A stretch of DNA of 64,000 nt from the NCBI RefSeq assembly GCF_027474525.2, contig NZ_CP114882.2, positions 1,612,001-1,676,000 of the forward strand, given 5' to 3'. A model generated the notes under the pieces. The model searched no databases and was not told the origin of the DNA. It worked only from the letters and a program-made list of their open reading frames with translations. Of this stretch, positions 28,415 to 63,947 are shown piece by piece; the first letter of the stretch is position 1, and every line of letters starts with the position of its first letter. Made by a program: the position numbers and the translations under genes. The stretch comes from Flavobacterium lacustre. GTDB lineage: Bacteria; Bacteroidota; Bacteroidia; Flavobacteriales; Flavobacteriaceae.

Positions 28415-28489
28415 TGGGCGATGAGGGGTTCGAACCCCCGACCCCCTCGGTGTAAACGAGGTGCTCTGAACCAGCTGAGCTAATCGCCC
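28415..28489 (-). tRNA. tRNA-Val (anticodon UAC)
   Basis: The minus strand folds as a full 75-nt cloverleaf. The acceptor GGGCGAT pairs with ATCGCCC, the D arm starts TAGCTCAGCTGG, the anticodon stem CCTCG/CGAGG closes loop TTTACAC with anticodon TAC, and the T arm is GGGGG-TTCGAAC-CCCTC with one G-U pair. The discriminator base is A and CCA is not encoded. Confidence 0.97.
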
Positions 28490-35157: not shown

Positions 35158-36216
35158 ATGAAAATAAAAATAACTGGAATAGGAAGTTATATTCCTGAGA
35201 AAAAAGTAAGCAACACCGACTTCGACAAACATGTATTCTTAAACGAAGATGGTTCTCTTTTTAATTACCCAAATGAAGTCGTAATCAGTAAATTCAAAGG
35301 AATTACCGGTATAGAACACAGGCGTTATGCCGAGGATGAATACACTTCGTCTGACTTGGCTTTTTTCGCTTCCCAGAAAGCAATAGAAAATGCGGGAATT
35401 GATCCCGAAACTATTGATTATATTATTTTTGCCCATAATTTTGGAGATGTAAAATGCGGAACAACCCAATCGGATATGATTCCGAGTCTGGCCACACGTG
35501 TAAAACATAAATTACAAATAAAAAATCCTAAATGCGTAGCATTTGATATCCTTTTTGGTTGTCCGGGATGGATTGAAGGCGTGCTTCAAGCAAATGCTTT
35601 TATCAAATCCGGCATGGCCAAAAAATGTTTGGTAATAGGTGCAGAAACTCTTTCCAGAGTTGTTGATGCACATGACCGCGATTCCATGATTTATTCAGAT
35701 GGTGCCGGCGCATCAATAATTGAAGCTTCAGAGGACGAAACGGGAATGTTGTCTTATGAGAACGCCACTTTTGCAAACGACGAAGCCAGTTATTTATTCT
35801 TCGGGAAATCGTACAATCCGGATTTAGATCCAGACATACGTTACATCAAAATGTTTGGTCGCAAAATCTATGAATTTGCATTGAGCCAAGTTCCTGCCGC
35901 CATGAAAAGCTGTTTGGACAAAAGCGGAATTGCAATCGATGATGTCAAAAAAATTCTGATTCATCAAGCCAACGAGAAGATGGATGAAGCCATAATTCAC
36001 CGTTTTTACAAATTATACGGCAAAACACCGCCCAAAGATGTAATGCCCATGAGCATTCACGAACTCGGAAACAGCAGCGTAGCAACCGTACCAACGCTTT
36101 TTGACTTATTAATACAAGGAAAAATCGAAAATCAGGAAATCCATAAAGGCGACGTGCTAATCTTCGCATCCGTTGGTGCCGGAATGAACGTCAACGCCTT
36201 TGTTTACAGGTATTAA
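35158..36216 (+). CDS. 3-oxoacyl-ACP synthase III-like (KAS III/FabH-type thiolase-fold) enzyme
   Basis: A 352-residue thiolase-fold protein. FDILFGCPGWIEGVLQA carries the active-site Cys, ILIHQANEKMDEAI the catalytic His-Gln, and ELGNSSVATVPTLFDLL the Asn of the Cys-His-Asn triad. It opens with ITGIGSYIPEKKVSN and ends in the usual GDVLIFASVGAGMNVNAFVYRY. It condenses an acyl-CoA starter with malonyl-ACP or acts on a related acyl substrate. Slightly longer than housekeeping FabH (about 320-330), so it may be a paralogue for special fatty acids, flexirubin-type or other lipids. The palindromic repeat at 36245 follows it by 28 bases. Confidence 0.88.
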   Translation: MKIKITGIGSYIPEKKVSNTDFDKHVFLNEDGSLFNYPNEVVISKFKGITGIEHRRYAEDEYTSSDLAFFASQKAIENAGIDPETIDYIIFAHNFGDVKCGTTQSDMIPSLATRVKHKLQIKNPKCVAFDILFGCPGWIEGVLQANAFIKSGMAKKCLVIGAETLSRVVDAHDRDSMIYSDGAGASIIEASEDETGMLSYENATFANDEASYLFFGKSYNPDLDPDIRYIKMFGRKIYEFALSQVPAAMKSCLDKSGIAIDDVKKILIHQANEKMDEAIIHRFYKLYGKTPPKDVMPMSIHELGNSSVATVPTLFDLLIQGKIENQEIHKGDVLIFASVGAGMNVNAFVYRY

Positions 36217-36244: not shown

Positions 36245-36382
36245 GCTAATCCAGCTGTACACTACAATTCCTCACCGCAAAATGTGTTTTTCTCAGGTAA
36301 AAAAAAGCTTCTTTTAGTCGCTTTTTTGTATCCGGAAAAACTACATTTTGCGGCTCCGGGATTTTCGCTTCCATCTGGGCTA
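36245..36382 (+). repeat. Dispersed palindromic element, copy A (138 bp)
   Basis: Starts GCTAATCCAGCTGTAC and ends CCATCTGGGCTA. The ends pair with each other (9 of 11 positions), as do a long arm (CCGCAAAATGTGTTTTTC with GAAAAACTACATTTTGCGG) and an inner stem AAAAAAGC/GCTTTTTT around a loop containing GTC. Copy B at 63809 has near-identical ends and loop but different, still self-complementary arms. It lies between the KAS III-like and methyltransferase genes. Confidence 0.85.
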
Positions 36383-63233: not shown

Positions 63234-63806
63234 ATGATTAACATTGTTTTATTTGGGAAACCAGGCGCAGGAAAAGGAACACAAGCTGAATTTTTGAAAG
63301 AAAAATACAAATTAACACACATTTCTACCGGAGATGTATTTCGTTACAATCTAAAAAACGATACCCAGTTAGGTAAAGAAGCAAGAGTGTACATGGACGC
63401 TGGCGATTTAGTTCCAGACGAATTGACCACAAAAATGCTGATTGACGAAGTAAACAAACATCCGGATACAAACGGAATTTTGTTCGATGGTTACCCAAGA
63501 ACAATTTCACAAGCCGAAGCATTAGACGCCTTTTTGACGACAATTGGTTCAAAAGTAGCTGCAACAATTGCACTAGAAGCCGATGATGAAATTCTAATCG
63601 CACGATTATTAGAAAGAGGAAAAACCAGCGGAAGAATAGACGATCAAGACGAAGATAAAATCAGAAACCGTTACCAGGAGTACAATGAAAAAACAGCTCC
63701 CTTAATGGATTATTATAAAAATCAAGGAAAATTTCATGCCGTGAACGGAATTGGTTCTATCGCAGAAATTACCGAAAGAGTAAGCAGCGTAATTGACAGT
63801 TTGTAG
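63234..63806 (+). CDS. adk: Adenylate kinase (short form)
   Basis: A 190-residue kinase. FGKPGAGKGTQAEFLKEKY is the P-loop, THISTGDVFR the AMP-binding site, ILFDGYPRTISQAEALD the Asp-Arg segment, and RIDDQDEDKIRNRYQEY the lid. The lid is short and lacks the zinc Cys cluster of long-form adenylate kinases. It converts ATP plus AMP into two ADP. The palindromic element copy B begins 2 bases after its stop, so the element may shape the 3' end of this message. Confidence 0.97.
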   Translation: MINIVLFGKPGAGKGTQAEFLKEKYKLTHISTGDVFRYNLKNDTQLGKEARVYMDAGDLVPDELTTKMLIDEVNKHPDTNGILFDGYPRTISQAEALDAFLTTIGSKVAATIALEADDEILIARLLERGKTSGRIDDQDEDKIRNRYQEYNEKTAPLMDYYKNQGKFHAVNGIGSIAEITERVSSVIDSL

Positions 63807-63808
63807 GA

Positions 63809-63947
63809 GCTAATCCAGCTGTACGTTACAAGTCCTCGCTAAAAAAACTATTTTTCCATACCTCAAAAGGAGCTTCCTCCGGTCGCTCTTTTCAGGCAGG
63901 AAAAATTAGTTTTTTTAGCTCCGGGCTTTTCACTGCCATCTGGGCTA
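63809..63947 (+). repeat. Dispersed palindromic element, copy B (139 bp)
   Basis: Starts GCTAATCCAGCTGTAC and ends CCATCTGGGCTA, as copy A does. Its long arm CTAAAAAAACTATTTTTCC pairs with GGAAAAATTAGTTTTTTTAG, and an inner stem AAAAGGAGC/GCTCTTTT (one bulged G) closes a loop containing GTC. The arms differ from copy A but remain self-complementary. It abuts the adk stop codon. Confidence 0.85.

Follow-up and report, generated by a model that had tools for sequence, protein, structure and literature searches.

Two long hairpins of Flavobacterium lacustre as a long variant beside Flavo-1, with freely changing paired arms at stable sites

The window analysed here, a 64,000-nucleotide stretch of Flavobacterium lacustre (NZ_CP114882.2, positions 1,612,001 to 1,676,000), contains two copies of a long variant that stands beside the Flavo-1 RNA family (Rfam RF01705). 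The variant shows covariation, a strand-biased wobble and stable sites, and its arms change both in pairs and as a block. The explanation favored here, to which we give about an even chance, is that the two elements belong to a set of dispersed intergenic hairpins which selection for the minus-strand fold keeps in place. That this selection acts on one strand at the RNA level is our best guess. The features are as follows.

36245..36382, minus strand: element 1, long-form Flavo-1 (121.3 bits with long-form covariance model R1), with two neighbours named by eye, one like ketoacyl synthase III (35158-36216, plus strand) and one like a methyltransferase
36359..36382, minus strand: 5' core of element 1, TAGCCC.GAT...ATCC
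36245..36270, minus strand: 3' core of element 1
36275..36284: outer arm of element 1, CCGCAAAATG, partner 36344-36353
36344..36353: outer arm of element 1, CATTTTGCGG, partner 36275-36284
36307..36321, minus strand: tip module of element 1, GCGAC-Y-NNN-R-GAAGC
63809..63947, minus strand: element 2, long-form Flavo-1 (137.7 bits with the long-form model, 39.7 bits with RF01705), directly preceded by adk (63234-63806, plus strand, named by eye)
63839..63850: outer arm of element 2, CTAAAAAAACTA, partner 63907-63918
63907..63918: outer arm of element 2, TAGTTTTTTTAG, partner 63839-63850
63872..63886, minus strand: tip module of element 2, GCGACCGGAGGAAGC
28415..28489, minus strand: a tRNA gene elsewhere in the window

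Each element is one long hairpin. Rereading of the sequence confirmed the positions of both, with the common ends and loop words that an earlier note on this DNA had listed. The outer arms differ between the copies, yet they are perfect complements within each (CCGCAAAATG/CATTTTGCGG and CTAAAAAAACTA/TAGTTTTTTTAG), as had been claimed. The further claim that the inner stem changes in step was correct in that the stem is complementary in each copy, but in element 2 (AAAAGGAGC/GCTCTTTT) one base is unpaired. The MFE was -44.7 for element 1 (z -6.25) and -48.2 for element 2 (z -6.55). None of 200 shuffles folded as well as either element, which rules out a chance origin of the folds.

The earlier note recognised no named family and placed both copies on the plus strand. 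An Rfam scan at default settings missed the elements, and a permissive scan was needed. It gave a match to RF01705 over the whole of element 1 on the window's minus strand, which is the strand of the Flavo-1 family (40.2 bits, E 1.4e-7), and the score of element 2 was 39.7 bits; both lie just below the gathering cut-off of 42 bits. The conserved cores, the stepped basal helix and the minus strand are common to Flavo-1 and the window copies. In contrast, Rfam models 76 positions, and the extra length of the long form, about 60 nt, consists of the tip module and the free arms. Among the 19 long copies of the host genome, RF01705 was passed at its cut-off by six, ten scored 30.8-40.4 and three had no match at E<=0.05. 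The window copies are sub-threshold, and were therefore filed as a long variant beside Flavo-1 and not as standard members.

Flavo-1 was described by Weinberg et al. 2010 (PMC2864571), whose table enters it as RNA 'y' and cis-regulatory 'n'; the Rfam type label is Gene; sRNA. According to the Flavo-1 passages of Guerin et al. (PMC9723704), matches lie sense and antisense to transcribed regions, with many beyond them, and the function is open, transcript data having given no functional clue. No description of exchangeable centres in Flavo-1 was found in the portions of the open-licence literature consulted.

The family is abundant. Scoring of 150 of 1046 candidates in the host genome gave at least 62 Flavo-1 matches at E<=1, at least 55 of them above the cut-off; the two window copies were not within the 150 scored. 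Combined with the copies found by the long-form model, the host total is 76 matches, which is a floor. The expectation that a whole-genome search would yield more than two copies, with covariation support, was thus borne out. The sister genomes G199 and G293 have at least 97 and 96 Flavo-1 matches, respectively (150 candidates per genome). In the genus, where 29 candidates per genome were scored and counts are lower bounds, 140 of 150 genomes had a match at E<=0.001, and in the order 58 of 196 genomes did, from 17 of 72 genera. This agrees with the occurrence of Flavo-1 in Bacteroidetes.

Short and long forms can be told apart. In short copies the centre between the cores is highly variable in length, with a minimum of 8 nt, as surveyed in 82 copies picked by the 5' half only, long copies included. 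In the long form, the 15-nt tip GCGAC-Y-NNN-R-GAAGC sits at a near-fixed distance from the base. Among 63 distinct long copies from fetched DNA, all but one (62) had arms of 36-40 and 36-41 nt; about 46 of the 63 are orthologs at the adk and KASIII sites, and the search had a reach of 75 nt on either side. Independently of this survey, a long-form covariance model built from 17 long copies found 19 copies in the host genome, all of 132-137 nt. Lower-ranked matches were short copies, 58-108 nt in length, and two mirror matches. At E<=1e-10 the model gave 12 matches in G102, 29 in G291 and four in G325, and 37 of these 45 were 132-138 nt long. Scanned over the window, it returned only the two known minus-strand copies and a weak mirror match.

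Other architectures were also seen. Loci L067-L070, L073, L075, L076, L079, L080 and L082 represent another Flavo-1 subtype, in which the core is enclosed by an additional outer stem, GCGTGAGGGAT ... ACGCCC or variants of it. Additional hairpins occur inside the element at the adk site, in the inner stem in L109 (G111) and at the arm base in L091 (G291; CCCGATAATTTTCGGG).

Covariation was scored over the host's 19 long copies, which occupy 19 sites. With their alignment fitted to the covariance model, whose training set included 7 of the 19, the score was 0.514, whereas 500 shuffles gave 0.158 (sd 0.014) and slid versions no more than 0.164; 28 of 38 pairs had changed on both sides. The view that the element is structured, with fixed ends and tip and compensatory change at several levels, is supported. 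Orthologs of single sites gave scores of 0.323 (control 0.121) at adk and 0.224 (control 0.115) at KASIII, each from 25 of 30 loci; the adk alignment was made without L091, L098, L101, L104 and L109, and the KASIII alignment without L274, L277, L279, L280 and L282. At the KASIII site, the outer arms CCGCAAAATG/CATTTTGCGG of the host correspond, for example, to CCATAAAATG/CATTTTATGG in G003 (L261). Neither the double-change pairs (nine, reached by 89 of 500 shuffles) nor the pair types (24, reached by 296 of 500) were unusual at this site.

Further copies had been expected to stay complementary. Most do; the exceptions are L098, which has decayed at the adk site, and, at the 36245 site, L254-L260 and L262, whose outer helix is reduced to about 5 bp. 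For adk, KASIII and site 3, the loci used were the 30 best DNA matches from 365, 299 and 249 genomes scored, with G293 added at site 3; the queries contained the element, and occupancy at these sites is not a genus-wide rate. At lower ranks in one locus search the match was mostly to the synthase gene alone, and one genome scan left 33 of 398 genomes unscored. Strong covariation can be produced by block replacement of palindromes as well as by base-by-base compensation.

Both kinds of change were found when the sister genomes G199 and G293 were compared. The element was present in both sisters at all 16 sites for which both flanks were found; the G293 stretches used in this test had been selected for the G293 matches they surround, and six copies (five in G199, one in G293) were unresolved. 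The lack of any empty site among the 16 resolved orthologous sites suggests little movement of the whole element. Two of the 30 KASIII loci (L279 and L282) are without the element, but their spacers are rearranged.

Pairing by both flanks, in which 65 of 97 G199 copies and 75 of 96 G293 copies were compared, gave 45 pairs; unmatched copies carry no information on absence. In 39 pairs the centres could be aligned, giving 612 base pairs. Of these, 579 were unchanged Watson–Crick pairs and seven were unchanged pairs of other kinds. Eight had changed from one Watson–Crick pair to another (three transitions and five transversions, two maybe reflecting slippage), as against about 0.6 double changes expected by chance in a calculation by hand. 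Three more had other two-sided changes and 15 had one-sided changes (six G.T, three A.C and six other). Divergence was 9.3% in the flanks (400 nt on each side, coding sequence included) versus 37 of 1224 stem sites.

In the remaining six of the 45 pairs, the centre at the same site was unalignable (<70% identity), and one more such case (C18:127403) came from the 16-site test. The better cases are C31:48089, C35:46061, C35:338467 and C18:127403; the poorer ones are C29:351669 and C29:207945, where the flanks are weaker or the outer ends differ, and C27:266647, with one short flank. The suggestion that the arms are rewritten was therefore supported in two ways, by paired substitutions and by replacement of whole centres at unmoved sites. 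At one replaced site (site 3) the element was present in all 31 genomes examined (the best 30 of 249, plus G293), and 30 of the centres (G164 omitted) formed three, seven or 15 clusters at 60, 70 or 80% identity. This natural replacement series makes both the function and the mechanism of exchange testable. Since G236 has both the centre and the odd core of G293, the G199 centre (C31:48089) is derived.

No donor beyond control level was found for this derived centre in its own or the sister genome. Conversion was considered for G293 C28:36474, whose 34-nt centre equals that of G293 C25:24128; G236, however, has a near-identical centre at the site, so this centre is probably old. The 31-nt site-3 centre of G128 is identical to the centre of G199 C35:395052, at another site. 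Among 183 parsed elements, 14 identical centres were shared by 33 unrelated copy pairs, whose cores were 0.881 identical, a little more than those of random pairs (0.842, sd 0.056). Convergence may account for some of these centres, 12 of the 14 being A/T-rich, and such pairs could also come from dispersal of whole elements; as evidence for exchange, the shared centres are thin. Flavo-1 elements tend to stay at their chromosomal site while their arms undergo change or block replacement, and we infer exchange of centres among copies. As a separate observation, two long-palindrome copies lie 3.6 kb apart in G199 (C14:63747 and C14:67321), are 96% alike and show between them one compensated pair change (A-T to G-C).

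The two strands differ in wobble. Single mismatches were counted in 248 distinct centres, G.T and A.C having equal weight in the pairing score. The Flavo-1 strand had 59 G.T versus 24 A.C (p 1.6e-4), and at least eight of the 24 A.C cases fell at one conserved junction position. By set, the G.T:A.C counts were 15:5, 22:10, 12:4 and 10:5 (p 0.041, 0.050, 0.077 and 0.30), each weak singly. Two counts on long copies gave 11:3 and 17:6. Column-based counts at two orthologous sites were 27:5 and 39:2. Folds derived from the opposite strand gave 17:5 and 5:9 when their mismatches were scored on the Flavo-1 strand; the second site (A2, 5 GU versus 9 AC) runs against the trend and is less clear. A first ortholog count by single-sequence pairing had placed A.C above G.T (21:41 and 21:26) because of conserved non-canonical positions in the core and tip, and was replaced by the column-based counts. 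The wobble bias would not be expected if the fold were needed equally on both DNA strands.

It may be, although with less than an even chance, that Flavo-1 sites are permanent docking sites with inherited position and cores, at which the hairpin centre, bounded by the cores, is swapped as a cassette via a strand-specific folded intermediate. If so, a recombination system would be reading structure and not sequence. A separate and unlikely reading is that a recombinase or transposase in trans recognises the hairpin in the form of folded single-stranded DNA, with attC-like or REP-like logic. It predicts sequence-free arms, one preferred strand and exchange of centres; the first two were seen, and whole centres are replaced at fixed sites. 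It would also agree with the absence of a promoter signal before the element, described below, but not with the lack of empty sites at the 16 resolved positions. Orientation relative to replication also speaks against it: with the origin placed at dnaA and the terminus at half, the 76 host copies divide 34 to 42 (p 0.42), and transposition bound to a replication strand was rejected on this ground.

Nor was dependence on Y1_Tnp seen. The earlier note had proposed a REPIN-like element with an associated RAYT. Y1_Tnp (PF01797) was found in 108 of 150 genus genomes, 103 of 140 with Flavo-1 and five of ten without (Fisher p 0.14); the test covers presence of PF01797 only, RAYTs are not split from IS200 genes, and some genomes are drafts. 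At E<=0.001 it was absent in G004, G028, G029, G052 and G053, each with at least 29 Flavo-1 matches, and it was present in the Flavo-1-free genomes G017, G032, G075, G083 and G122. A RAYT-driven REPIN was rejected on these data. The sole Y1_Tnp match of the host adjoins a tandem array of the palindrome CTACAAAATGTATCGAGCCGATGGCTC (G000:C1:3156349-3156693, L423), which is likely of REP type and unrelated to Flavo-1.

It is quite improbable that the pattern comes from a neutral DNA process, namely template switching or conversion within the palindrome and between copies, with a functionless fold. Such a process would account for the five transversions (two maybe slippage) among the eight G199–G293 double changes with full pairing, since transversions have no G.U intermediate. 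It does not, however, account for the strand bias of the wobble; stem sites change less than flanks, and correction alone is insufficient for tip and base modules and lengths that are conserved across sites.

Copies are intergenic, in every orientation. As judged from gene calls that are crude open frames, host long copies between co-directional neighbours (18 copies had both neighbours called) were antisense in eight of eight cases (p 0.0078), and those of three other genomes in 12 of 15 (of 26 copies; p 0.035). Not all of these cases are independent, since the host and G102 have the adk and KASIII sites in common; without these the count was 18 of 21 (p 0.0015). Sets of mostly short copies had a weaker bias (40 antisense versus 26 sense, p 0.11).

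The Flavobacterium-type promoter consensus is TANNTTTG. This single motif, the only one scored, was not enriched upstream of the element, read on the element's strand (10 of 249; 0 of 47 within 30 nt), and an sRNA gene with its own promoter was rejected for that reason. An independent trans-acting sRNA gene, as the Rfam type Gene; sRNA and the 'y'/'n' table row of Weinberg et al. 2010 would have it, has little probability, given the lack of a promoter signal and the 76 matches in the host and 96-97 in G293 and G199, at unrelated sites and in all orientations. Still less probably, the element terminates transcription of the upstream gene or stabilises the 3' end of its mRNA: copies do often lie a few bases past a stop codon, but neither strand of the two window copies has a U-run after the hairpin, for which an intrinsic terminator was rejected, seven of the host's 18 long copies with both neighbours called lie between divergent genes, and the wobble favors the strand opposite the mRNA in tandem surroundings.

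Under selection on the minus-strand fold, the explanation favored here, the arms hold the base core and the tip module a near-fixed distance apart, their sequence being free as long as they pair. The arms change, as seen in the sister genomes, by paired substitutions that preserve the helix or by a swap of everything between the cores while the site stays where it is; such replacement would most likely proceed by exchange among the 70-100 copies of a genome. Upon transcription across the site, RNA of the Flavo-1 strand would fold, and a host factor reading base and tip might bind or process it; we propose that the long copies between co-directional genes are mostly antisense because of this folding. 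Counting against this reading are the missing promoter signal, the sense and antisense matches of Guerin et al., the 5:9 count at A2, the weak wobble tests by set, the derived G199 centre without a donor, the thin evidence from shared centres and the weaker antisense bias of mostly short sets. The data present Flavo-1, labelled an sRNA, as a structural element of high copy number and stable position whose long form resembles a ruler.

REPINs need inverted REP pairs and a RAYT partner, whereas Flavo-1 is without dependence on Y1_Tnp. Pneumococcal BOX elements are modular (boxA-B-C), and integron attC sites have the ends RYYYAAC/GTTRRRY; unlike attC, the Flavo-1 long elements have, to our knowledge, no integrase partner. 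Among known systems, the REPIN spacer is organised most similarly, and according to PMC3116915 it has conserved ends, constrained length and pairing, and common compensatory changes; the long copies likewise have conserved ends around a pairing spacer. The bcr1-type repeats of Bacillus cereus, as presented in the consulted parts of PMC3446304 and PMC2267715, are also intergenic, of high copy number, conserved in fold and often transcribed within transcripts, but are called MITE-like there. BOX elements (the subject of PMC3049150) have conserved outer modules and a changeable middle, whereas the middle of Flavo-1 is a palindrome replaced whole at fixed sites. Integron attC (PMC2727003) resembles Flavo-1 in keeping structure with free sequence and in preferring one strand.

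Some centres contain the palindromes GGATTGCTTCGTTCCTCGCAATGACA and CCTGAACTTGTTTCAGG or close variants (L185; G293 C29:24166; G146 at site 3). Palindromes of this type, with few mismatches, also occur in fetched DNA away from any nearby Flavo-1 core.
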